Source of the DNA: Methylolobus aquaticus
Lineage (GTDB): Bacteria > Pseudomonadota > Gammaproteobacteria > Methylococcales > Methylococcaceae
Assembly (NCBI GenBank): GCA_004168015.1
Contig: SEYW01000003.1
Span: forward strand, 62,001 to 126,000
Direction of reading: 5' to 3'
DNA: 64,000 bases
A program made the position numbers and the translations under genes. Position 1 is the stretch's first letter, and each line of letters starts with the position of its first letter. The notes under the pieces were generated by a model that was not told where the DNA came from, made no database searches, and saw only the letters and a program-made list of their open reading frames with translations. Below are positions 2,053 through 51,915 of the stretch, piece by piece.

Positions 2053-2904
2053 TCAGGCGACGGTTTTCGTCAGCAGGAAATACGCGTAATTGCGGTCATT
2101 GATCGCGGGGTCGAGCGGAACCAGGGAGACCATGCGGGGCGTGAAGCCGAGTTCCTGAGCCTTGATCCAGAATTCCTCGATCTCGTAGGTGGCATGCCAG
2201 TTGAGGTTACGCTCGTAGGCCCACCGCCGCGTCGCATGCCGCCGCCGTGACCCCGGGTACTTTATCTGAATCAATGCCATACCCCGATCGGACAACAGGT
2301 CCCGCGCGATCTGCAGCACACGCAAACCGTATTCGGGTGTAGGCAGCAACTCAAAAACGTAAGTCGAAAGGAACAGATCGCAGGGACCACCGATCTGGTG
2401 CACCGCCGCTTCGGGGCACGATGAGTCAATCAACACCGGGCGGAAGTTGCTGAAGCCGGAGGCCGTCATTTGCCGTCCGCACTCGGCGAGGCTCTCGGGA
2501 GAGATGTCGACACCACAGTATTCGGGCGTTGTCGCGGCGAAGTGCACGGCGTTCATGCCCCCACCACACCCCCACTCGACGATGCGCTGCAACGGTGGCG
2601 TCAAGCCGACTGCCGCGGCGAACTCCCTGTAGAGACGGATATGCCGGCGCCCGAGTTCGAGCCAGAGCGCATCGTCAGCGAAAACACCCTGACCACGCCA
2701 ATGAGAATTCTCCTTGAAGGCTGGAGCGCCGGCATCCTTCCAGAAGTCCTGCGCATCGCTGACCAGCTTGTCCTCCGGCTCGTTGAGGCCGATCAGCTGG
2801 CGCAGGTTCAACTCCACACCTGACGCCAGCCCGCGGAACCGGCTCGTGAGTTTTTTCAAGGCGCCAGATTGGCCGCCGCCGCGCTGGACGTCGGGTTGTT
2901 GCAT
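2053..2904 (-). CDS. Class I SAM-dependent methyltransferase
   Basis: 283 residues from an ATG at 2904 with an AGGA ribosome site seven bases upstream. The SAM-binding motif I is VEWGCGGGMNAVHFA, followed by motif II GVDISPESL. A basic region precedes the fold. The C-terminal part (AQELGFTPRMVSLVPLD) completes a Rossmann methyltransferase with no further domain. The gene is divergent from a polysaccharide flippase, which suggests a substrate in envelope glycan or lipid modification, but that is guilt by association. Codon use and GC match the surroundings. Confidence 0.8.
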   Translation of the reverse strand: MQQPDVQRGGGQSGALKKLTSRFRGLASGVELNLRQLIGLNEPEDKLVSDAQDFWKDAGAPAFKENSHWRGQGVFADDALWLELGRRHIRLYREFAAAVGLTPPLQRIVEWGCGGGMNAVHFAATTPEYCGVDISPESLAECGRQMTASGFSNFRPVLIDSSCPEAAVHQIGGPCDLFLSTYVFELLPTPEYGLRVLQIARDLLSDRGMALIQIKYPGSRRRHATRRWAYERNLNWHATYEIEEFWIKAQELGFTPRMVSLVPLDPAINDRNYAYFLLTKTVA

Positions 2905-3212
2905 GCCGCTTCCTCCGGACCAAAACCTCGGCTCGGGCGACACTCGCGCCCGCGTCCGGCTCTTCTGTCGAAGACCCCGGTGCCGCGGAGAATACCATGC
3001 CGCGCCGCGCGGCTGGGAGCGACGGCGGGAACCCCTCGGGACCCCGCGGGCTCGCTTTGCAGCCCCCCTGCGCGCAGCGCGCCCATCGGCGACATCCGCC
3101 TGGACATGTAAGATACGCGCGTTAGGGAACGCCCGGCCGCGCGACGCCACGCTCCCGACACCTCCTACCGGTTAGCCCCGGCCACTCCCCCAGTTCAAGA
3201 GGCCCCCGCAGC
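2905..3212. other. Divergent intergenic region, methyltransferase / flippase
   Basis: 308 bp between two divergent genes, so it must hold both promoters. It is GC-rich; no convincing -35/-10 pair, operator or structured RNA was recognised. No coding potential beyond antisense and out-of-frame extensions. Confidence 0.5.
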
Positions 3213-4757
3213 GTGCTCGACGTCAAGAAGATCGCCTTCAACACGGCCATCATGTACGTGTGCCTGATCGCTCAAACCCTGGTCACCTTATACATGTCGC
3301 GCGTGATCCTGCAGGCCCTGGGCGTCATCGACTTCGGCATCTTCAATGTCGTCAGTGGCGTTGTGTTGCTGATGCAGTTCCTCAACAACACGATGTCCGG
3401 GTCGGTGCAACGGTATCTGAGCTTCGAACTGGGCAAAGGCCGACCCGACAACGTCACGCGCTTTTTCAATGTCGCGATTGCCGTGCATCTCGGCATCGCG
3501 CTGCTCGCCTTCATCCTTGGGGAATCAGCCGGCTTCTGGTTCCTGCGAACCTATCTCAACATCCCGCCCGATCGAATGGTCGCCGCGGAATCGGCGCTGC
3601 ACTGCGTGATCGCAATCTTCATGTGCACGGTCATGACCGTTCCCTGCACCGGACTGTTGAATGCGAAGGAGAACATGGTCGCGGTCTCGCTGCTGACCCT
3701 GGCCGGCGCGGTGGCAAAACTGGCGGCCGCCTTTGCGCTCATGGCATTCGAAGGCGACAAACTGGAGTTATACGGTCTCTATTTGCTGCTGATTGCCGCG
3801 GCGACACTCATCACGAACTACCTCATCTGCTGGAGCCTTTATCCGGAGGCGCGGCTGCGGCTGGTGCGCGAGAAGCGCATCTACCGCGAGCTGACCGGCT
3901 TCGCTGGCTGGGGCCTGGTCGGCGATCTGGCCAGCATCGCCAAAAACCAGGGCACGACGATCCTCTTCAATATCTTCTGGGGTCCGGCGGTCAACGCTGC
4001 CAATGGCATTGCGGCCCAGATCAGTGGACAGGTCCAGACCTTCTCCACCATGCTGATCGGGCCGACGGACCCGCAGATCGTCAAGAGCTATGCCCGTGGC
4101 GACAAGGACAGCATGTTCAAGCTGGTCTTCCAGACGACCAAGATCTGCTTCTTCGTGATGTATACCGTCTGCCTGCCCCTGGCCTTCGAGATGGAATGGG
4201 TGCTGCGTCTATGGCTGGCGCAGGTTCCCGAGTACACGCCCATCTTTGCCAGACTCGTGCTGGCGGACGGTCTGGTCCTGATGCTGTCATCGCTGCTGCC
4301 GACGGTCGCCCGCGCTACCGGCAAAATCGCGGCATTCCAGCTGATCGTCGGTCTGATCATCTTCATCAACCTGCCGTCCGCCTACTTGCTGCTGGCGAGC
4401 GGCTTTCCACCCTATACGGTGTTTCTGGTCAGCATCGCCGTTTCCTGCATGGCACTGTTCGCCCGTCTGCTGCTGCTCCGGCCGATGGTCGGCTTGAGCC
4501 TGAGCGCCTTCGTGCGCCAGGTGTTGATTCGCCTGGCATTTCTGGTCATGGTCACGGCCGTGCCGATGATTGCGCTCGACCAATACATTCCGGATGGACT
4601 GGCGCATACGGCGGCCATCATTTTTTCTGCTCCCGCACTTTCCGTGCTGGCCATGTGGCTTTTCGTTCTGACAGCGGCCGAACGCCGTTATGTGATCGCC
4701 GGCCTGGGCAAGCTGATCGCCCGCCGCAGAGGTGATCCGGCCAGGGCCACGAGCTGA
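3213..4757 (+). CDS. Polysaccharide/lipid-linked oligosaccharide flippase (Wzx/MVF-like)
   Basis: 514 residues starting at GTG 3213 after an AAGAGG-like ribosome site. The protein is almost entirely hydrophobic, with about 12-14 predicted membrane segments. The N-terminus (TLYMSRVILQALGVIDFGIFNVVSG) is characteristic of the Wzx/PST branch of the MOP exporter superfamily, which flips undecaprenyl-linked glycans across the inner membrane. Basic residues close the C-terminus. The next gene, an L,D-transpeptidase, starts 76 bases downstream on the same strand. No glycosyltransferases lie nearby, so this is an orphan flippase gene. Confidence 0.85.
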   Translation: MLDVKKIAFNTAIMYVCLIAQTLVTLYMSRVILQALGVIDFGIFNVVSGVVLLMQFLNNTMSGSVQRYLSFELGKGRPDNVTRFFNVAIAVHLGIALLAFILGESAGFWFLRTYLNIPPDRMVAAESALHCVIAIFMCTVMTVPCTGLLNAKENMVAVSLLTLAGAVAKLAAAFALMAFEGDKLELYGLYLLLIAAATLITNYLICWSLYPEARLRLVREKRIYRELTGFAGWGLVGDLASIAKNQGTTILFNIFWGPAVNAANGIAAQISGQVQTFSTMLIGPTDPQIVKSYARGDKDSMFKLVFQTTKICFFVMYTVCLPLAFEMEWVLRLWLAQVPEYTPIFARLVLADGLVLMLSSLLPTVARATGKIAAFQLIVGLIIFINLPSAYLLLASGFPPYTVFLVSIAVSCMALFARLLLLRPMVGLSLSAFVRQVLIRLAFLVMVTAVPMIALDQYIPDGLAHTAAIIFSAPALSVLAMWLFVLTAAERRYVIAGLGKLIARRRGDPARATS

Positions 4758-4833: not shown

Positions 4834-6690
4834 ATGCCTGTGCGCCCGACAACCCGTTTAGTCCAGCCGCGCATGCGGCTTCTGATCCTGATTCTAATCA
4901 GCACGGCTGCCGCCACGGGTTCCGCAGCCCGCGCGGCTACCGAGCCCACTGTCGCGATGCCTGAGCTCGAGAAGAAGCTGGCCGAGTTGGCCAGTCCCGC
5001 CGCCGAGACGCCATCCGAACCGGACTGCGGCAGCGAAGTGGCCAGGGCGTATAGCGCACGCAAATTCACATCCGCCTGGTTGGCAAGCACCCATCCATCC
5101 TCCCGCGCCGCTGCGCTGCGGAGCGTGCTGGAGGCTTCCGGTGACGAAGGATTGTCCCCGTCCCGTTATCGCACGGCCGACATGGCGCGCTGGTGGGCCA
5201 GAACCGACACCACAAGTCGGGCGCGACTGGAAATCGCTCTGACGGAAGGCCTTTGCCGCTATATCCGCGACATCACACTGGGCCGCAGCGAACTGCGCAG
5301 CGTCGAACAAGCCACGACAGGCGCGAACGCCGCGGGTGTCAGCGCCCTGCGAGTGCTACTCCAGAAGGCACTCGACACAAGCTCGCTCGAAGCATTGTTG
5401 CGCCAACTGCCACCCCAGGATGCGGAGTATCAGCAGCTCAGGACTGCCCTCCGCAATCTGCGCCAACGTCCACGCGAGGGTGGCTGGAAGAACATCGAGA
5501 CCGGCCCGCTCCTGAAGCCGGGCGCCAGTGACCCGCGCATCCCGGCGATACGGCAACGACTCGCTGCATCGGGCGATTTTTCCGGCCCACTATCGAGTTC
5601 GACCACCTACGACGCCGAACTCACCAAGGCCGTTCGTCGGTTCCAGCGCCGTCATGCACTACCGCAGGAAGGCATCATCGGCGCGGCCACGGTCAGCGCT
5701 CTGAATATCCCCGTCGAGCAGCGGGCACGGCAGATCATCGTTAATCTCGAGCGCCGTCGCTGGAATCCTTCCCGCAGCGCCGGGCGGCAAATCGTCGTCA
5801 ACATTCCCGGCTTCGAACTGGTTGCGCTCAGCGACACGAAGACCGTCCTGGAAATGCCGGTCGTGGTCGGCAAGGCCTACCAGCAGACACCGGTCTTCGA
5901 CGAAAAGATGGAGTATCTCGAGTTCAATCCGGACTGGCTCGTGCCGCCCGCGCTGGCGGCCGCCGAGTTCCTGCCCGAACTGCAACAGGATCCGACCCGT
6001 CTGGCGCGTAAACATATCCGCATCTTCAAGGGTCTGGCCAAGGACGCGCCCGAAGTCGACCCGAAGTCGGTCGACTGGAAGACGATCACGCCGACGACGA
6101 TGGTCCGTTATGCTTTTCGCCAGGATCCGGGACCGTGGAACGCGCTCGGCCGACTGAAGTTCATGTTTCCCAACCCCCATAATGTCTACCTGCACGACAC
6201 CTCCGAGCCGCAGTTCTTCAACGAGCGCCAGCGCACCTTCAGCCACGGGTGCATCCGGCTGAGCCGCCCGGAGGAACTGGCCGCCTGGGTCCTGGAGGGG
6301 CTGGACCCGCCCTGGGATCGTTCCCGCATCCGTGCCACCGTAGTGGGCGGCCAACCGTTAACCGTACCGCTGGCGAAGCCGATTCCGATTCGGCTCGCTT
6401 ACCACACGGTGTTCTTCAAAGACGATCCGCTGTTGCACTTCCTGCCGGATATCTATGGCCGCGACGCGGCGTTGGAACGAGTCCTCCTCGGCGAAGAGAC
6501 CGGAAGCGACCACGCGCAGAAGCCGAAAGCGGCGGCCCCCATGGCGGCTCCCGCGAACCGGCAAGCTTCTGGCACGGCGGCAACGTCTGCGCCCGCTCGC
6601 ACGCCGCCGCCGAAGACTCCGCCGGCGGTGCCGAGCGGAGAACGCCCGAAAACTCCGGCATCAGTCAGTACTCGCATGATGATGCGATAG
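4834..6690 (+). CDS. L,D-transpeptidase, YcbB/LdtD type
   Basis: 618 residues from the ATG at 4834; an alternative ATG at 4873 gives a shorter signal sequence and is equally possible, as neither has a strong ribosome site. A hydrophobic export signal (RLLILILISTAAATGSA) leads into an SCP-like/YcbB N-terminal region. A peptidoglycan-binding domain lies around residues 245-300 (VRRFQRRHALPQEG), followed by the YkuD catalytic domain. The catalytic motif is HGCIRLS with His471 and Cys473. It forms 3-3 peptidoglycan crosslinks in the periplasm. The tail after about residue 560 is Pro/Ala-rich and low complexity, an addition not usual for the family. Confidence 0.9.
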   Translation: MPVRPTTRLVQPRMRLLILILISTAAATGSAARAATEPTVAMPELEKKLAELASPAAETPSEPDCGSEVARAYSARKFTSAWLASTHPSSRAAALRSVLEASGDEGLSPSRYRTADMARWWARTDTTSRARLEIALTEGLCRYIRDITLGRSELRSVEQATTGANAAGVSALRVLLQKALDTSSLEALLRQLPPQDAEYQQLRTALRNLRQRPREGGWKNIETGPLLKPGASDPRIPAIRQRLAASGDFSGPLSSSTTYDAELTKAVRRFQRRHALPQEGIIGAATVSALNIPVEQRARQIIVNLERRRWNPSRSAGRQIVVNIPGFELVALSDTKTVLEMPVVVGKAYQQTPVFDEKMEYLEFNPDWLVPPALAAAEFLPELQQDPTRLARKHIRIFKGLAKDAPEVDPKSVDWKTITPTTMVRYAFRQDPGPWNALGRLKFMFPNPHNVYLHDTSEPQFFNERQRTFSHGCIRLSRPEELAAWVLEGLDPPWDRSRIRATVVGGQPLTVPLAKPIPIRLAYHTVFFKDDPLLHFLPDIYGRDAALERVLLGEETGSDHAQKPKAAAPMAAPANRQASGTAATSAPARTPPPKTPPAVPSGERPKTPASVSTRMMMR

Positions 6691-30200: not shown

Positions 30201-30566
30201 CTGCTGACACTTATTGGCCTGTCGGCCAAGAACGCGATCCTGATCGTCGAGTTCGCCATCGAGGGCGTCAAAAAAGAGGGGATGTCCTACCGCGATGCAG
30301 CGATCCACGCCGCCAAGCTACGTTTCCGGCCTATCGTGATGACGTCCATCGCGTTCATTCTGGGCGCCGTGCCCCTGGTCACCGCCACCGGCGCTGGCGC
30401 GCACGCCCAGAACTCCGTCGGCGCCGGCATCGTCGGCGGCATGCTCGGCTCGACCTGCGTCGCGGTGCTGTTCGTCCCGATGTTCTTCGTCGTGATGATG
30501 GGCTGGTCGGGAAAGAACAAGCCCGAGCCCGAGGGGACGCCGGGGCCGGAGAACGTCAGGGGATAG
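27288..30566 (+). CDS. RND efflux transporter, HAE1/AcrB family
   Basis: 1092 residues from a GTG at 27288 with AGGA-like upstream sequence, 11 bases after the adaptor. Twelve membrane segments in two halves. The proton-relay pair Asp444-Asp445 lies in GIVVDDAIVVLENVERIM. Slightly longer than AcrB (about 1050). N-terminal ISETFISRPVLAIVCSIM is typical of MexB/AcrB-class drug pumps. No local regulator gene flanks the operon. A shard of a related C-terminus lies 0.9 kb downstream. Confidence 0.93.
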   Translation: MISETFISRPVLAIVCSIMIVIGGVMAALNAPIDQYPLIIPPVLNINSTFPGASSEAIANAVAAPIEDQIAGTENMIYMQSASQNGSNSVSINVYFNVGTSLGIVEADTLNRSLTASNSYIPEQARAQGIRIRKMIPDLFQVIPFYTETGSPDPLYIANYVQRYIYPVIEQIHGVGFVNILGQRSYAIRINVDPKRLAFYKIGIPEIIEKVRDQSDQYAVGQNAMPPTYGPEKSNFLITTTGYYTDVKQFENIVLRANLDGKNEVPLNNPDQVEAAKFSLAGNAQIVKLKDVARVELDANNYNNYFHVHKRDEKTGEVKTFEAVSLQLYLVPGANQLETKASVAAAMSRIDQFLPKGIKYFYHYDSSIFVYQAIQGVVVTLLIAFGLVFAVVFLFIQNFRGTIIPILAIPVAVIGAFAGIYASGFIINTLSLFGLVLAIGIVVDDAIVVLENVERIMEEDHLNSFDATVKAMREVSAPVIAIVLVLNAVFVPVAFLGGFSGTMMQQFAVTIAISVVISGFVALTLTPALCVIFLKNVKHDASKPKFVFFRWFDAGFAKLQSGYMSTVIWLIDHAKIGLTVWAVVLVATVAMFLRIPTSLIPLEDMGYFYNVTHVNPGGALKYSVDEANKIAAEMMKRIPYLDRLVVMGSQDIIDNGTFKTNTSTIMGVLNDEDKRDMVHQTIDTAIEETTKINGENKNINGYAFNQPPIRGLSPSGGVTFYLQATQPVSIKEIHDDSVKLVEYLEKNYPSVKRASQFYEIDTPELRVDVDPEKAYYYKVDFKSAYNSLQGIFGLYYITFFTKWADLFWVEITGEYDYRKNPELLNTVYIKNSAGEMVPAGNIMKLTETTGAEVVTRLNDFLASQIVVDPDSDNGHTSGEIMDIIEDVVPKVLGNRYDVKWFGLAYQQQIAGNQSAVALSLGLIMVFLILAALFEMWSLPIAIVMALPFALFGAAFVLLVFQMPNDLYFQVSLLTLIGLSAKNAILIVEFAIEGVKKEGMSYRDAAIHAAKLRFRPIVMTSIAFILGAVPLVTATGAGAHAQNSVGAGIVGGMLGSTCVAVLFVPMFFVVMMGWSGKNKPEPEGTPGPENVRG

Positions 30567-31380: not shown

Positions 31381-31453
31381 AGAGCCACCGTTTAGGAGAA
31401 TGGGGCCAGGGTGAGGTCACTCTTGGTCCACAGAACTCCGTCAGCCGCAACCT

Positions 31454-31541
31454 GGATCGACCCGCGTCGTGGTGCTATTCATGCCGATGTTCTTCGTCCT
31501 AATGATGGGCTGGTCGGGGAAGGACAACCCGCAGGCCGGTA
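31454..31541 (+). pseudogene. Remnant of an RND transporter C-terminus
   Basis: In frame this stretch reads GSTRVVVLFMPMFFVL, then MMGWSGKDNPQAGR. The intact pump at 27288-30566 ends GSTCVAVLFVPMFFVV, then MMGWSGKNKPEPEG. Similarity at both DNA and protein level is unmistakable over about 28 codons. There is no upstream coding sequence, so this is a fragment left after deletion or duplication of a related pump gene. Differences at synonymous and non-synonymous sites show that it is not recent. Confidence 0.8.
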
Positions 31542-31774
31542 GGTCACCGGCTCGCGTTGCAGCGTGTCGCGATGTTGTTCAAGAGAGAGAATCGCGGGCA
31601 CAATCCGCTGCATAGGCCGGTCTCGTTTGTCAGGGTGGAAAACGTCGAGAACTTCCCACGATAATTGAGGAGTACCGGCCTTCCTCAACCCCGGATTGTC
31701 TCGCCGTGTGAAAGGAAGACTTCTTTCGATCGCCCTGAAACACCAAGAGATGATTGAGCCCTAGCCGACTCAAC

Positions 31775-31806
31775 TACGGAAGGACGGAACACCAAGTCCT
31801 TCCGTA
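31775..31806. repeat. Inverted repeat, 11-bp perfect arms
   Basis: Arms TACGGAAGGAC and GTCCTTCCGTA with a 10-base spacer. It lies between remnant genes. Possible hairpin terminator without T-tract, or an end of a lost mobile element. Confidence 0.45.
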
Positions 31807-32126
31807 AGCCGGGTGATGAGCAGGTCGTTCCGAGAGTTGGCCGATTGCTCGCCGCTCACGGCGGAAAGCTGTCAAACGCGGGGACCTTATCCAGCCCCTG
31901 AACCCAAAATCCGCTTTGCTCGCAAGGAAGAGAGGCGCGTCTGGCATCAGAGCCACAGGCATATCGAGAGAACCGGCGGGAACGCGACCACTGTGTCGTC
32001 CGTCTCGTAGGGCAGGGCTGATACACAGACAGAACAGAAGCATTTTCTGTGTCGCGTGTCCGGAAGATTGAACGAGGTTGCCTTTTCCGCGCTGGCGGTC
32101 CACCGGAGACTAGCCGATTTCAGCAT

Positions 32127-32199
32127 CTTCGTATCGAGCAGTCTGGCATCATGCAACAGTCGGAGCACGATCACGCGATCACCTGCAAGCTTAAACATA
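32127..32199 (-). pseudogene. Remnant of a ParE/RelE-type toxin 3' end
   Basis: Minus-strand translation gives FKLAGDRVIVLRLLHD then ARLLDTKML, nearly the same as the end of the intact toxin at 33085-33408 (FKIAGDRVIVLRVLHG then ARLLDTKLL). DNA identity over about 70 bases is high, with scattered substitutions. Only the last quarter of the gene remains; the 5' part and the antitoxin are absent. An open frame continues past the family's stop, which is decay rather than extension. Confidence 0.8.
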
Positions 32200-32255
32200 A
32201 GCTAATCCGAGCCAGGCCCCTTCTCTCTTCATTTCCCTACCGCGACTGGCGAAAG

Positions 32256-32864
32256 CTACACCTCATCTTCATACCTTATTGGAAAGCCAAGGTCTTCGAG
32301 TGCGATGAAGTGCCAGGGAAACGGCTCAAGTGGCAGCATTTCTCTGATTCCGAATAACGTCTTGGCTCTTGAGTCTTCGAAGTTCCATCGGTCTCGAATC
32401 TGTTTCGCCCATTCTCGAGTTGGGACGATTAGCGTTGTGGCATCCGGCTCGAGGTCTAGCACATCTGTTTGAACTCGCCATTCACGTTCCCACGAATAGT
32501 CGATACCTCGATGCGGCTCATAACGAACATGCCGGTACTTTATTTCATCAGCGAGGATGGAGTATTCGCTTTCCGACTGATAGATAACAGGGCGTCCTCC
32601 CCTTTCGAACAACCAAGTCTTGCCCACCATAACACCAAAAGGATGATATCGGCAGCCTAATTGAGAGGGCAAGGCGAGCATCAGTGAAATTTTTGCCAGC
32701 GGCGCCTCGCTAAAACAAACGCACTTGAAACCGCCTCTTATATCGCGCCCACTTCCGCGCAGACTTCGGTCGCAGAGGATGCTGATGAAATTGTCTTCTG
32801 CAGCAGTTGCAGATTTTCCTCGTGTTAGGTGTATCAGACGGTCACTCAGATCATCGCGGAGCAT
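32256..32864 (-). CDS. Uncharacterised protein, possible AbiGi-like / ADP-ribosyltransferase-like
   Basis: 202 residues from an ATG at 32864; the ribosome site is weak. The N-terminus has LIHLTRG followed by a spaced FISILCDRSLRGSG and KCVCFSEAPL, a pattern reminiscent of DarT-like and AbiGi-like proteins in which an early H-x-T, a G-L and a CFSE/T stretch mark an ART-type fold. Later conserved-looking segments: RYHPFGVMVGKTWLF, GGRPVIYQSESEY, DEIKYRHVRYEP, and YSWEREWRV. No signal peptide or membrane segment. It is low in GC relative to the flanks and stands alone between toxin remnants and a toxin-antitoxin pair, so a defence or toxin role is plausible but unproven. Confidence 0.6.
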   Translation of the reverse strand: MLRDDLSDRLIHLTRGKSATAAEDNFISILCDRSLRGSGRDIRGGFKCVCFSEAPLAKISLMLALPSQLGCRYHPFGVMVGKTWLFERGGRPVIYQSESEYSILADEIKYRHVRYEPHRGIDYSWEREWRVQTDVLDLEPDATTLIVPTREWAKQIRDRWNFEDSRAKTLFGIREMLPLEPFPWHFIALEDLGFPIRYEDEV

Positions 32865-33084
32865 TCTTTTTGACTTTAAGGTTTAGACACGGCCTGTGGC
32901 CTTTCAGAGGCGTCGCTCCCGCAGCAAAGGGGCAAGGGCAAACATCAAATTGCAGTGGGTTAACGTTATGCGTGCAAGGGTATCAGCTCTCGCATCACAA
33001 GCCTTCACACTCAAGGCAACACGCACCACGCTGGAGTTAACGGAAAAAGTGAACCGTCGCCCGTTCCCTGTTGGGCGTATACAG

Positions 33085-33408
33085 CTATGTTGACTCCCCT
33101 TTCAATAACTTAGTATCGAGCAGCCGGGCGCCATGCAACACTCGGAGCACGATCACGCGATCACCGGCAATCTTAAAAATAGCCCGATAGTGACCGAACA
33201 ATAAATGGCGATATCGTTCGCCTAGAAGGCGGCTCTCGGGTATGCGAGGGCAGCGCTTGGGGAACCGCTCCAGAGCGCCGATCTGCTCTTCCAAACGCAG
33301 GATGAAGGCCGATGCCGCCTCGGGACTATCCTGCGCTATGTAGTCCCAGATGTCGGCAACATCGGCCTCGGCGGTTGCTGTAATCTCAACCCTGTATGTC
33401 CTTTCCAC
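33085..33408 (-). CDS. ParE/RelE-family toxin of a type II toxin-antitoxin system
   Basis: 107 residues from a GTG that overlaps the antitoxin 3' end by 23 bases. ParE-fold pattern: YRVEITATAEADVADIWDYIA, SPEAASAFILRLEEQI, LLGERYRHLLFGHYRAIF, and DRVIVLRVLHGARL. Members inhibit gyrase (ParE) or cleave mRNA on ribosomes (RelE); the sequence sits closer to ParE-type stabilisation toxins, but the target is inferred. A truncated copy of its 3' end lies 0.98 kb to the left. Confidence 0.9.
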   Translation of the reverse strand: MERTYRVEITATAEADVADIWDYIAQDSPEAASAFILRLEEQIGALERFPKRCPRIPESRLLGERYRHLLFGHYRAIFKIAGDRVIVLRVLHGARLLDTKLLKGEST

Positions 33409-33673
33409 CCTTGAACTCTTCCATGAATTCGCGCATCGGACGGGTCTTTCCGCTTTCGATATCGCGTTCGGCCGGTGTCAACAACTCGGCCATATTTCCC
33501 GCCCTCAGAAGCTCTTCGTAAGCGCGGACATCCAGCAACACGGAATCGGCACGCCCGTTCACCGTGAGGATGACCGGCCTACCCGTCGCATGAAGATGGT
33601 CGAGGATTTCGCGCGTATGGCGCTTCAGATCGGTGACGGAGCGGATATCTTCCGTAGGGCTGATCTGTGACAC
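33386..33673 (-). CDS. Phd/YefM-family antitoxin
   Basis: 95 residues from a GTG with an excellent AGGGG ribosome site. N-terminal Phd/YefM dimerisation and DNA-binding domain (DIRSVTDLKRHTREILDHL, PVILTVNGRADSVLLD, YEELL), then a charged flexible toxin-binding tail ending in FMEEFKGGKDIQG. It neutralises the toxin encoded by the overlapping downstream gene and probably represses the operon with it through the imperfect inverted repeat at 33688-33715. Confidence 0.9.
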   Translation of the reverse strand: MSQISPTEDIRSVTDLKRHTREILDHLHATGRPVILTVNGRADSVLLDVRAYEELLRAGNMAELLTPAERDIESGKTRPMREFMEEFKGGKDIQG

Positions 33674-33687
33674 GGCTTTCCCCTATG

Positions 33688-33715
33688 ATGCTTAATTTCG
33701 CACCGAACTTAGCAT
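33688..33715. promoter_or_regulatory. Candidate toxin-antitoxin operator
   Basis: Imperfect inverted pair ATGCTTAA (33688-33695) and CTTAGCAT (33708-33715), immediately upstream of the antitoxin ribosome site in AT-rich DNA. Place and form fit Phd-type conditional autoregulation. Confidence 0.45.
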
Positions 33716-33923
33716 TGCATTAGGCGATAGACAAGGTGCTTGGGAACGCTGTAGACGGGAGTTGCAGTTCCCCACACACTGCCTGATCGGGTCCATGGCA
33801 CACGACGGCGATCATCGGCATGAGATATTTGGGAACCAGACTGACAGAGAAAGCACACCAACTGGACGCCAGTACCCCCGAGCAGTACAACCCTAATTCC
33901 GACTACGGGCCACCTTCACCGCC

Positions 33924-34409
33924 ATGGCCAGGTCAGCACCTTCATCGCCGCCAAACACGCCCACAGTAGTTCGCGGGATCGCCCTGTTCGAAGCCTTGAA
34001 GGGCGCGCTGGTCTTCCTCGCTGGCTTCGGCGCGCTGTAGTTGCTCCATCAGGACATCGACGAGATTGCGGCGGAGTTGCTGACCCACTTTCACCTGAAT
34101 CCCGCCAAGCACTATCCAAGCATCTTTCTCGATGCGGCGGGAAAGCTCACTGATGCGCGTTTATGGACACTGGCGGCATTGGCTGCGGTCTACGGCACCG
34201 TCCGCTTCATCGAAGCCTATGGGCTGTGGCGGGAGCGGCGCTGGGCGGAATGGCTGGACGCCGGCAGTGGCGGTCTTTACATCCCTTTCGAGATCTACGA
34301 GATGACGCGGGGTGTCGCCTGGCTGTCGGTCGCCGCACTGGTCATCAACGTGGCGATCGTCGGCGTGATGGTCGATGCCCTGCGGCACCAGCGGGCGGCG
34401 GGGCCCTGA
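33924..34409 (+). pseudogene. DUF2127 membrane protein, interrupted by an in-frame amber codon
   Basis: The frame from ATG 33924 matches the DUF2127 pattern (GIALFEALKGALVFLAGFG, then the C-terminal LYIPFEIYEMTRG) over 162 codons. Codon 39 is TAG (34038-34040), right after the first membrane segment. A TTG follows directly and could in principle restart a 122-residue protein without that segment. The duplicate at 35978 has a Ser codon (TCG) at this place, showing that the stop is a lesion. DUF2127 proteins are small integral membrane proteins of unknown function. Confidence 0.85.
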
Positions 34410-34423
34410 ACCGTGCGGTCGAC

Positions 34424-34800
34424 TCAGTGCGCAGTCCGACGCATCGTTAAGCAGCGCATCGGCCGGCACCCGCGACAACTGCCCGTCCGCCGCCAGCTAA
34501 GCCGCCCGACACCCACCTGTCCCAGCACCTCCCGCCCCGTTTTCGTGAGCCGGCACACATCGCCGTTTTCGATCACGCAGGCCGTCGGCACATGGCAGTC
34601 GGTCGCAATCGCCGCATTGGCGGCCAGATGGCGCGGCGTCCCGTGCACCGGGATCACAGCCGGCGGCCGCACCCAGTCGTAGAGCCGGCGCAGGCCGGCT
34701 TCAGCCTTGTGTCCCGAGACATGCACGTGGGCCTTGCCGTCCGTTACGACCTCCACCCCGTGTTGTTTCAGGTGGGCCTGCACGCGTTTCGACGACCGGG
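34424..34800 (-). pseudogene. 3' fragment of an RNase J-like gene
   Basis: Minus-strand translation matches the last 120 or so codons of the intact RNase J gene (36477-37868): QAHLKQHGVEVVTD, YDWVRPPAVIPVHGTPRH, and CHVPTACVIENGDVCRL. Near the end, compensating indels turn LSVAADGQLSPVPADV into an unrelated stretch before the shared MRRTAH ending. No catalytic metallo-beta-lactamase half is present. It is a by-product of the segmental duplication. Confidence 0.85.
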
Positions 34801-34937
34801 CCGTCGTCGAGCTTTCAGCCGCCGGCATGCAGCGCGGCAACAAGCCACTCGGCAAGGCCCCATTCCGCGCGTTTTTCGCCCTGGCCTGCCAACGCACCCC
34901 GGTTACGGAGCTAAGGCCAGGGGAAGAGGAGATGGAA

Positions 34938-35603
34938 TCAGGGAGACTTACCGCTGCCCGCCAACGGCAGGTACTGCACGTTCAGCTTGAAGTCATGCGA
35001 TGAGGGGTTTCCACAGTTCTGCGCATTGCAACTGCCGCCTGCCGCGATGAGGTACTGTCCTGCACTCAGCGTCCGCGCGAACGCCGCATAGCGTGTCGCT
35101 CTGCGCGACATGTTGCCCGTCCCGGCCAATACCCTTTTGTTGTCCCCGTTCGTGAAATTCGTCCCGCCGTTCACGTAGCCCATGAACTGTGTTGCGCCAT
35201 CGCCCCCCTGCGACTGGGGTTTGAGGAAATCGCTGGAACCACTTAGCCCGACTTGATTGTAGGCGTGCGACAGATGATTGCCTCCGACGAACGTCCCGCT
35301 GGTCCTCCATACGGAAAAGGCAGGCTTCATCCGATTGACGCTGGACGTCATCGTGATCTGGACGGTAGCGGTCCTGGCCAGGGTGAAGGTGTACCACTTG
35401 CTGTTGTGCGCCCAACCCAGGTTCGGCGTGATGCCGTTCCAGCCATCCCATGCGTACTGGGGTACGATGCCGCTCGTGAAGACACCAGTTCTGGGCACGG
35501 CGCCCAGATCAATCACGGCGATCGCCGATGCCTCCGAAAAAGCGCCTGCGAGGACGGTGCCGGCCAACAGGGCCGCAACTCGGTTGCCTGGATTTCGTTT
35601 CAT
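34938..35603 (-). CDS. Exported protein of unknown function
   Basis: 221 residues from the ATG at 35603 with a GGGAGAA ribosome site. Clear signal peptide (RVAALLAGTVLAGAFSEASA). The mature part is rich in Gly, Ser, Thr and Asn, predicted mostly beta, with SKWYTFTLARTATVQITMTSS resembling the pre-peptidase/DVUA0089-like beta-sandwich found in many exported proteins. Two cysteines near the end (SCNAQNCGN) may form a disulfide. It ends abruptly in LPLAGSGKSP without a sorting anchor. Located exactly between the two halves of the segmental duplication, so it may have been inserted at a breakpoint. Confidence 0.7.
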   Translation of the reverse strand: MKRNPGNRVAALLAGTVLAGAFSEASAIAVIDLGAVPRTGVFTSGIVPQYAWDGWNGITPNLGWAHNSKWYTFTLARTATVQITMTSSVNRMKPAFSVWRTSGTFVGGNHLSHAYNQVGLSGSSDFLKPQSQGGDGATQFMGYVNGGTNFTNGDNKRVLAGTGNMSRRATRYAAFARTLSAGQYLIAAGGSCNAQNCGNPSSHDFKLNVQYLPLAGSGKSP

Positions 35604-35977
35604 TCTGTTCTCCCGATTGTTAGATAAACTTACTCGCGTTTCCGCGACCGCTTTCGGCATCGCGGAGCAGAACACCTGCCCCACCGACTGCGATGTCGGA
35701 CGGCGCGGCCGCATGGCCGCGTGACGGGTTTATCCAGAGCAACAGACGAACCAAGTGTGCGGAGACGTACTGAGGGACACCAAGTCGTTTTTGCACAAAC
35801 CTATTTTGTTTCTATGTTTCGCTCCGAACACACCTGACTCCGAGGCATATCCCTCACCTACTGAGGCAAATGCCGCAACCACGCCGGATCCGCGGCCGGG
35901 CCCGTTGGCTGCACCGCCTTTGAGAATTACGGGCTAGACGGAAGTGAGGGTTTACCTCACAGCGCGCCTTCACCGCC
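35604..35977. other. Intergenic stretch upstream of the exported-protein gene
   Basis: 374 bp. It must hold the promoter of the minus-strand gene starting at 35603. It includes a locally AT-rich patch (about 35785-35825) and a small perfect inverted repeat GTGAGG / CCTCAC at 35944-35960 just before the right duplication copy. No gene is supported. Confidence 0.5.
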
Positions 35978-36855
35978 ATGCCCAGGCAGGCACTTTCATC
36001 GCCCTCAAACACCTGCCCCATCGTTCGCAACGTGGCCTTGTTCGAGGCTCGAAGAGCGCGCTGGTGTTCCTGGCGGGATCCGGCATCCTGTCGCTGCTGC
36101 ACAAAGACGTGCAAGCGATAGCGGCGGAGCTGCTGACCCACTTTCAGCTGAACGCGGCTAAGGACTATCCCAGCATCTTTCTCGATGCCGCGGGAAAGCT
36201 CACGGATGCGCGACTCTGGACGCTTGCGGCAACGGCCGCAGTCTACGGCACCGTCCGCTTCATCGAAGCCTACGGTCTGTGGCGGGAGCGGCGCTGGGCG
36301 GAATGGCTGGCCGCCGGCAGTGGCGGCCTTTACATCCCTTTCGAGATCTACGAGATGACGCGGGGCTTCGGCTGGCTGTCGGTCGCCGCGCTGGTCATCA
36401 ACGTGGCGATCGTCGGCGTGATGGTCGATGCCCTGCGGCACCAGCGGGCGGCGGGGCCCTGAATCGTGTCGTCGGCTCAGTGCGCGGTCCGGCGCATGGT
36501 GCGCAGCACGTCGGCCGGCACCGGCGACAACTGCCCGTCCGCCGCCACGCTAAGACGCCCGACATCCACCTGTCCCAGCACCTCCGGCCCCGTTTTCGCG
36601 AGCCGGCACACATCGCCGTTTTCGATCACGCAGGCCGTCGGCACATGGCAGTCGGTCGCAATCGCCGCATTAGCGGCCAGATGGCGCGGCGTCCCGTGCA
36701 CCGGGATCACGGCCGGCGGCCGCACCCAGTCGTAGAATCGGCGCAGATCGGCTTCGGCGGGATGTCCCGAAACGTGCACGTGGGCGTGGGCGTCGGTCAC
36801 GACCTCCACGCCGTGCTGTTTCAGGTGGGCCTGCAAGCGCTCCACCGAGCGCTCG
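35962..36855. repeat. Segmental duplication, right copy (partner 33908-34800)
   Basis: Same-orientation partner of the left copy. It spans the second DUF2127 frame and runs into the 3' third of the intact RNase J gene, so this copy is the source or the less damaged descendant. Identity is high in the DUF2127 C-terminal half and lower at the 5' end. Confidence 0.85.
35978..36462 (+). pseudogene. DUF2127 membrane protein with a 1-base frameshift
   Basis: From the ATG at 35978 (position equivalent to 33924 in the left copy) to the shared stop is 485 bases, one short of the 486 in the left copy. The missing base falls near 36046-36052, where GCTCGAAGAGC stands against GCCTTGAAGGGC. Upstream of it the frame reads NVALFEA; downstream it continues KSALVFLAGSGILSLLHKD, as in the family. 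An open frame running in from 35944 replaces the true N-terminus and is an artefact of the shift. A sequencing error is possible but would be a coincidence given the independent lesion in the other copy. Confidence 0.75.
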
Positions 36856-37868
36856 TTGCCGGGAATCATGCGGGACGAGAAGATCACGGTGTCGCGCGGG
36901 TCCAGCAGCAAATAGGGGTGGCGATCGGTCGCGATACGCGCCAGCGCGGACGTGGCTTCGCCCTGGCTGCCGGTGCACGCGGCCAGCACCTCGCCAGGTG
37001 GCAGGAAGCCGAGATGGCGCGGGTCGACGAGATCGGGCAGATCGTCCGGCCAATAGCCGACGCCGCGGGCGAAAGCGACCATCCGTTCCATGGCCGGGCC
37101 GATCACACCGAACCGGCGGCCGACGCTCTCGGCCACCCGAGCCAGCGTGACCAGACGCGCGATGTTGCTCGAAAACGCGGTGACCAGCACGCGCCCCTGG
37201 GACTGTTCGGCCACTTCCCGCAGCGGAGCGAACAGCGAGGACTCGGAACCGGTGCTGCCGGGCACGACCGCATTGGTCGAATCGCAGACGACGGCGAGGA
37301 GCGGCTCGCGCCGCAATGACAGCAGCCGTCGGTGGTCGTAGCGGCGGCCGATGACCGGATCGTCGTCGAGTTTCCAGTCGCCGGTGTGCAGCACGGCGCC
37401 GCAGGCCGTCGTGATCAACAGCGCGTTCGGTTCCGGGATCGAGTGCGTCATGCCGATGTATTCGACCGCGAACGGGCCGACCTCGAAGCGTTCGCCGAGT
37501 CCGATCTCGGTCACCGGTGCATCGTCGATGCCGGCCCGCGCCAGCTTGAAGCGCGCCAGTGCCGCGGTGAACGGCGTCGCATAGACCGGGCAGCGCAGCC
37601 GCCGCCACAGATAGGGCAACGCGCCGAGATGATCCTCGTGGGCATGGGTCAGCACGAGACCCGCCAGGCGCTCGCGACGGTGCGCAATGAAAGCCGGATC
37701 GGCCATCATCACGTCGTAATCCGGAAAGTCGTCGCCCCCGAAGGTGATGCCGACATCCACCGCCAGCCACCAGCCGTCATGACCGTAGAGGTTCAGGTTC
37801 ATGCCGATCTCACCGGTACCCCCGAGGGGTACGAACAGGGTTTCATCCGAGGCAGGCGTCACGTGCAT
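36477..37868 (-). CDS. Ribonuclease J family metallo-beta-lactamase nuclease, short form
   Basis: 463 residues from the ATG at 37868; an ATG at 37934 has a better ribosome site (AAAGGA) and would add 22 residues. N-terminal LFVPLGGTGEIGMNLNLYG is the RNase J hallmark. Metal ligands His75, His77, Asp79, His80 in THAHEDHLGAL. The beta-CASP region shows STGSESS, TAFSSNIARL, GSQGEATSAL and VHVSGH. Typical RNase J has about 555 residues; the C-terminal dimerisation domain is missing here. RNase J is uncommon in Gammaproteobacteria. Roles are 5'-3' exo- and endonucleolytic RNA turnover. It is downstream of bpt on the same strand. Confidence 0.85.
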   Translation of the reverse strand: MHVTPASDETLFVPLGGTGEIGMNLNLYGHDGWWLAVDVGITFGGDDFPDYDVMMADPAFIAHRRERLAGLVLTHAHEDHLGALPYLWRRLRCPVYATPFTAALARFKLARAGIDDAPVTEIGLGERFEVGPFAVEYIGMTHSIPEPNALLITTACGAVLHTGDWKLDDDPVIGRRYDHRRLLSLRREPLLAVVCDSTNAVVPGSTGSESSLFAPLREVAEQSQGRVLVTAFSSNIARLVTLARVAESVGRRFGVIGPAMERMVAFARGVGYWPDDLPDLVDPRHLGFLPPGEVLAACTGSQGEATSALARIATDRHPYLLLDPRDTVIFSSRMIPGNERSVERLQAHLKQHGVEVVTDAHAHVHVSGHPAEADLRRFYDWVRPPAVIPVHGTPRHLAANAAIATDCHVPTACVIENGDVCRLAKTGPEVLGQVDVGRLSVAADGQLSPVPADVLRTMRRTAH

Positions 37869-38007
37869 GAGATTGGAGCGTGCATGAGATTCGAGTCGCC
37901 CGCGGGCGATGGGAGCATATCGGCTGGCCGCCATTCTGCCATCCTTTCGGGGCGCTGAGGCCGTGTCGGCGGGTCCGCGGAAGGCACCGAGCGGTGCGAA
38001 TCGCCCG

Positions 38008-38751
38008 TTACGAGCGCGATGCTTCCGCGGAAGCCCTGACCGTAGCCTCCGCGAGCGGAACCCACGACCCACCTACCCGGCCTTCCAGGGGCCGGAAGCG
38101 GCGCTTGTAGTCCATCTTCCGACTGCCTTCGATCCAGTAGCCGAGATAGCACCAGGCCAGATCCAGGGCCCGGCAGCGTTCGACCAGATACAACACGGCG
38201 TGAGTGCCCAGCCCGCGCTGGTGCTCGTCGGGGTCGAAGAACGTGTAAACGGCCGACAGTCCTGCATGCACCCGGTCGGCCACCGACACCGCCAGCAACC
38301 GGCCTTGCCGCCGAAATTCGACGAAGACGGTGTCCTGCCAGTCGCAGCTCAGGAAGCCGAGATATTCGTCCGGACTCATGCCCACCATGCCGCCATCGGC
38401 GTGACGGGACCGCTGATAGCGGAGGTAGAGCCGATAATGTTCGTCGCGGAACTCCGCTTCGGTTTCGGCCACGGTCAGATCGGCGTTCCGGCGCCAGGTC
38501 CGACGCTGAGAGCGATCCGGCGCAAACTCCGCAACCGGGAGGCGAACCGGAATGCAGGCCGCACACGCTTCGCAGTGGGGCCTATAGACGTCGCCGCCGC
38601 TGCGGCGAAAGCCCTGGGCGACCAGCGCGCCATAGACCCCGGGAACCGCCGCCCAGGCAGGGTCGACCCAGGCCAGGCGCGCCACGCGGCCAGGCAGATA
38701 CGGGCATGCATGGGGCGGACCGCAGCGAGCCGAAACAGCCGTCAGCGCCAT
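38008..38751 (-). CDS. bpt: Aspartate/glutamate leucyltransferase
   Basis: 247 residues from the ATG at 38751, overlapping aat by 10 bases. Homologue of eukaryotic arginyltransferase N- and C-terminal domains: the Cys-rich start (CGPPHACPYLPGR, CEACAACIPVRLPV) and the C-terminal YLGYWIEGSRKMDYKRRF with HADGGMVGMSPDEYLGFL. It attaches Leu to N-terminal Asp/Glu, making substrates for ClpS-ClpAP. The aat-bpt pair is the standard arrangement. Confidence 0.95.
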   Translation of the reverse strand: MALTAVSARCGPPHACPYLPGRVARLAWVDPAWAAVPGVYGALVAQGFRRSGGDVYRPHCEACAACIPVRLPVAEFAPDRSQRRTWRRNADLTVAETEAEFRDEHYRLYLRYQRSRHADGGMVGMSPDEYLGFLSCDWQDTVFVEFRRQGRLLAVSVADRVHAGLSAVYTFFDPDEHQRGLGTHAVLYLVERCRALDLAWCYLGYWIEGSRKMDYKRRFRPLEGRVGGSWVPLAEATVRASAEASRS

Positions 38752-51661: not shown

Positions 51662-51915
51662 AACCTCTCCCCTCCCCTTTTCGCGGATCGAGCGCTAAGC
51701 GGCGCCCGTCTCTTGGTTTTGTATTCGACGGGCGGATGGCAGATCCGGAAACGGGCCAAACCGAACGTCGTTGTCGCCGGATGAGTTTGTCGCAGGCCGC
51801 GACTCCGCTCCGGACCGGCGGAGCGTATCATGGCGCGGCCCTTCGTTTCGAGACGAACGGAGAAAACCCCCGGACGATGCGCGGCGCCCGGACGCTCCGA
51901 GCGGCTCCTGCTGGG

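Follow-up and report, generated by a model that had tools for sequence, protein, structure and literature searches.

The locus and the question

A DUF2127 gene occurs twice within a short interval of the Methylolobus aquaticus genome, with its reading frame disrupted in each copy by a different lesion, which raises the question of how the two copies arose and whether either of them still encodes a protein. We explored this locus in a window of 64,000 nucleotides (the whole stretch of DNA analysed; GCA_004168015.1, contig SEYW01000003.1, positions 62,001 to 126,000) from a 3.39-Mb draft of 42 contigs, 89.5% complete, using as comparison genome Methylotetracoccus oryzae C50C1 (contig L017), the nearest named relative, from the same genus. 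The reading that we favour, with a probability of roughly 70%, is the ordinary loss of a duplicated accessory membrane-protein gene at a recombining spot, with both copies decaying. The features of the locus are the following.

33085 to 33673, minus strand: ParE-like toxin and Phd-YefM-like antitoxin pair, upstream neighbour of DUF2127 (Pfam ParE_toxin 68.9 bits, PhdYeFM_antitox 53.1 bits)
33924 to 34409, plus strand: left DUF2127 copy (486 nt), in-frame TAG at 34038-34040 (codon 39)
34424 to 34786, minus strand: RNase J C-terminal fragment (roughly one quarter of the gene); compared with M. oryzae, it has single-base indels at 34445 and 34496
34787 to 35958, no strand: insert between the repeat copies (1172 bp), absent from M. 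oryzae at this locus
34938 to 35714, minus strand: CorA-like gene in the insert (PF18252 23.8 bits, cut-off 27; NCBIfam FDP_fam 19.2, cut-off 29)
35978 to 36462, plus strand: right DUF2127 copy (485 nt), one base missing at about 36049
36477 to 38072, minus strand: intact RNase J gene, convergent with the right DUF2127 copy (Pfam RNase_J_b_CASP 111.9 bits)

Two DUF2127 copies with different lesions

Consistently with the sequence-only reading, the two copies had different lesions. Translation of the left copy runs for 38 codons from its ATG and then meets the TAG; its match to Pfam PF09900, with this one TAG inside, reached 156.6 bits (cut-off 24.3 bits), and the frame that remains after the TAG (34041-34409, 122 aa) scored 131.3 bits alone. 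The right copy is one base shorter than the left, the missing base being placed in codon 24 by three-way alignment and at 36049 by blastn against M. oryzae, and matched the same family at 141.7 bits. M. oryzae C50C1 has a single, intact and open DUF2127 gene of 161 aa (L017:3881-4366), flanked on one side by a Phd/ParE-type pair and on the other by a convergent RNase J gene. Both copies are thus disrupted in frame relative to an intact orthologue, as pseudogenes are. The earlier claim that both are broken holds firmly for the left copy; the right one is likely broken too, and is the less certain casualty, with most of its domain within one open GTG frame (35944-36462, 172 aa).

A mosaic direct repeat around an insert

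The copies are parts of an 874-bp direct repeat (33913-34786 and 35967-36839) that is 87.7% identical over 877 columns, so their resemblance is not due to chance. The repeat comprises DUF2127 and the last quarter of RNase J, running beyond the DUF2127 stop codons. On the left side, the original upstream context is kept (the toxin-antitoxin pair is also present in M. oryzae, collinear with L017) and RNase J is truncated, without the part upstream of its RMMBL domain; on the right side, RNase J is whole (463 aa from the M. oryzae-matching start at 37868) and what lies upstream has been replaced, as judged against M. oryzae. The window aligned to M. oryzae from 1 to 31551 at 94.9%, from 33026 to 34786 at 89.7% (L017, collinear) and from 35959 to 59869 at 95.3% (collinear), and the last two blocks overlap each other on the M. 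oryzae contig.

The insert's 258-aa ORF, the only insert ORF scanned with Pfam, is the weakly matching CorA-like gene, relatives of which (69-72% identical) occupy several other sites, both in this genome and in M. oryzae. Across four genomes (G000-G003), no other close copy of the insert was found; only this genome and G002 gave matches, namely the CorA-like relatives and two fragments of 39 and 72 bases. G002 is taken to be the M. oryzae C50C1 genome, the RNase J and DUF2127 sequences of the two being 100% identical. A transposon origin was considered and rejected, with no inverted repeats of at least 14 nt within 34700-36100; the same region holds a 16-nt direct repeat at 35671 and 36008.

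Identity to M. oryzae is about 95% around the locus (background mean 95.1%, 1st percentile 82.2, 184 windows of 300 bp) and fell to 75, 75 and 88% in the three 100-bp windows that cover 33900-34199 in the left block. Synonymous divergence changed abruptly along the gene: for codons 1-38, 40-90 and 91-161, respectively, dS was 0.58, 0.75 and 0.09 between left and right, 0.52, 0.27 and 0.05 between right and M. oryzae, and 0.85, 0.64 and 0.035 between left and M. oryzae. Compared with the whole right RNase J gene (dS 0.088 and dN/dS 0.079 against M. oryzae, 463 codons), the 3' part of DUF2127 lies close to the background level, which the 5' part greatly exceeds. Likewise, the left RNase J fragment had a dS of 0.57 to M. 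oryzae in its 32 junction-side codons and of 0.06 in the next 63. The observed clustering of differences (segment score) was reached by none of 100 permutations in each of the three pairs, the strongest cluster of the right-M. oryzae pair being confined to the first 84 columns. The DUF2127 copies are therefore mosaics with sharp divergence shifts along their length, in a repeat whose middle is near-identical between the copies and in M. oryzae and whose ends have diverged. In trees with nine outgroup sequences, left, right and M. oryzae clustered together in both halves (support 1.000), and the order among them had supports of 0.185 and 0.768 in the two parts.

These data are consistent with the following course of events. 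An accessory DUF2127 membrane-protein gene would originally have stood beside RNase J, and recombination between stretches of homology would have brought into the locus a segment carrying DUF2127, an RNase J tail and the CorA-like gene. The incoming DNA was probably that of a related Methylotetracoccus; among 38 family genomes, the left 5' part (33913-34212) matched only this genome and M. oryzae, with no donor found. The outcome would be two mosaic copies flanking the insert: on the left side, the old upstream region and the truncated RNase J; on the right side, a new upstream region and the intact RNase J. Both copies would have evolved as working genes until a nonsense change struck one and a one-base deletion the other, presumably because the gene was dispensable. 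M. oryzae is the one relative with a matching arrangement, and the proposed order and direction of events rest on this single comparison.

Since the three sequences group together with their inner order unsettled, a serious rival is an old tandem duplication in the lineage, after which gene conversion would have kept the mid-part of the repeat alike and M. oryzae would have lost one copy by recombination between the repeats. We consider it possible, at well under even odds; it has two decaying copies in common with the favoured reading, so the odds of the two overlap. The single group in both halves and the near-identical middle between diverged ends both fit such a history. However, a collapsed repeat in M. 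oryzae predicts a left-like 5' part, and its codons 1-38 are no nearer to the left copy (dS 0.85) than to the right (0.52); moreover, M. oryzae shares the near-identical middle, and the whole insert was not found there, a 71% relative of its gene lying on another contig along with weaker ones.

The neighbourhood was also searched in other genomes. RNase J was detected by tblastn in the fetched flanks of one of 20 DUF2127 loci (L003-L015 and L018-L024, without L016 and L025), namely that of M. oryzae itself (L008, the same locus as L017), the flanks being 1.5 kb or less at 13 of the 20. In the same-genus draft G001, contig ends fall in both DUF2127 and RNase J, and the arrangement can be judged in part only. 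One of its contigs (C263, L042) has a DUF2127 fragment at its end (4849-4938) and then a long ORF (2222-4717) that looked by eye like phosphoenolpyruvate synthase and not RNase J.

Sequencing or assembly error

That the lesions, or the entire repeat, are sequencing artefacts or the product of a draft assembly mixing two strains is unlikely. Such errors would fit a draft in 42 contigs, with exact runs of up to 73 bp common to both copies, and the two large blocks aligned to M. oryzae contained 38 indels, of which 29 were not a multiple of three and 18 were of one base. In the window, at least one other recognisable gene is also split: a zinc-ribbon ORF lies in two parts, with a one-base difference from M. 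oryzae near 51678. It emerged from a survey in which a window match was found for 45 of 50 ORF proxies from M. oryzae and 13 of these 45 were covered by less than 90% by one window ORF; nine of the 13 were run through Pfam, giving this one match, and the remaining poorly covered ORFs were mostly taken for shadow ORFs. Against error, the copies differ at 12% of positions and would be hard to mistake for each other, the base that the right copy lacks sits in a two-base run and not in a long homopolymer, several of the one-base indels occur in close groups, and 38 indels per approximately 55 kb are few at 5% divergence.

Coding potential and selection on the two copies

It is similarly improbable that the right copy is alive, that is, translated from the GTG at 35944 or another start into a DUF2127 protein with a replaced N-terminus. 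The 172-aa frame is open across the domain (35980-36459 covers Pfam positions 7-137 of 140, at 142.4 bits), and right-specific changes in codons 40-161 favour synonymous sites (8 versus 3). However, the new part of this frame consists of the old gene in a shifted reading frame, the region upstream is the replaced one, and the first hydrophobic segment falls under the threshold of 1.3, leaving one segment near the C-terminus; the M. oryzae protein has this C-terminal segment and a first segment, by a method that is a rough guide and may miss weaker middle helices. A dead left copy beside a right copy that makes a near-full-length DUF2127 protein, with a frameshift-made N-terminus of about 35 residues drawn from the old gene and its upstream region in another frame, is an outcome to which we give slightly less credence still.

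It had also been suggested that a restart yields a shorter product. For the left copy a restart is unsupported: no purine-rich stretch was seen by eye directly before its TTG, and the remainder has one strongly hydrophobic segment, near the C-terminus (threshold 1.3). For the right copy the suggestion may hold.

Left-specific changes in codons 40-161 were 14.5 synonymous and 6.5 non-synonymous. Assuming 26.5% synonymous sites, the synonymous excess had a binomial p of 0.00014 for the left copy (14/21) and 0.0018 for the right (8/11), which indicates that, over a large part of their history, the two lineages were evolving as functional genes. The dN/dS test that the sequence-only reading had proposed for the C-terminal part gave a low value, 0.22 between left and M. 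oryzae (codons 40-161), and is confounded by the truncated RNase J fragment, with 0.29 over 95 codons. As this fragment shows a similar, weaker bias, the synonymous bias of either DUF2127 copy may predate the damage. Its left-specific changes were more even (11.5 to 10.5), and some later constraint on DUF2127 is thus possible. Selection for a short C-terminal product is unsupported by this comparison of 0.22 with 0.29. The high similarity of the C-terminal halves, which had been pointed out earlier, was confirmed, although it is a weak sign of retained function, since M. oryzae is near-identical there and the identity extends into the truncated RNase J.

Occurrence of DUF2127 in the family

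DUF2127 scored above the cut-off in only 14 of 38 family genomes, and the gene therefore seems dispensable, judging from its distribution. At E 0.001, 15 of the 38 had a match and 23, some of them incomplete drafts, had none; two matches were found in this genome only. The other 14 matching genomes (13 above the cut-off) had no stop inside the matched stretch, to which the count was confined, two of these matches being short and partial, and one of the two below the cut-off. Selection against the full protein, one of the explanations first offered, found no support. Relaxed need, another, fits best, for the whole gene and not for its N-terminal segment specifically. A literature search on DUF2127 returned no paper on its function, judging by title.

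The surrounding window

Upstream of the locus, a variable island (31551-33026) differs from the corresponding M. oryzae region (L017 545-2985, with a VapC-like gene and a GFA-family gene). Within it, an ORF (31947-32198) looked by eye like a junction of two gene ends, one from a ParE gene and one from a GFA-family gene: 31816-32116 aligned at 80% to the end of the GFA gene in L017, and 32118-32199 is an 85% repeat of 33100-33181, which lies in the ParE gene. A direct repeat of about 100 bp (30431-30531 and 31439-31538, 81% identical) lies at the island's edge. A 202-aa ORF (32256-32864) had no match in Pfam (0.001) or NCBIfam (0.01), and PADLOC found no defence gene among four proteins near the locus, this one included.

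Comparison with known arrangements

The M. oryzae C50C1 locus resembles this one in its toxin-antitoxin-type upstream neighbour, its convergent RNase J gene and its DUF2127 gene of 161 codons, and differs in having one open DUF2127 copy, without the insert and without a truncated RNase J. The locus is a small, clear case in which recombination next to a conserved gene, at a variable site, would produce mosaic duplicates that then decay. Its importance is modest; it also carries a caution, suggested by the truncated neighbour fragment: a "surviving" half can owe its low dN/dS to inheritance. Duplicate-gene pseudogenes flanking a recombined insert are a general kind in bacteria, and this locus shares with them the direct repeat around an insert, the truncated neighbouring gene and the nonsense and frameshift lesions. 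It differs from them in that both copies are hit, by different lesions, and in the alternation of diverged and near-identical stretches.
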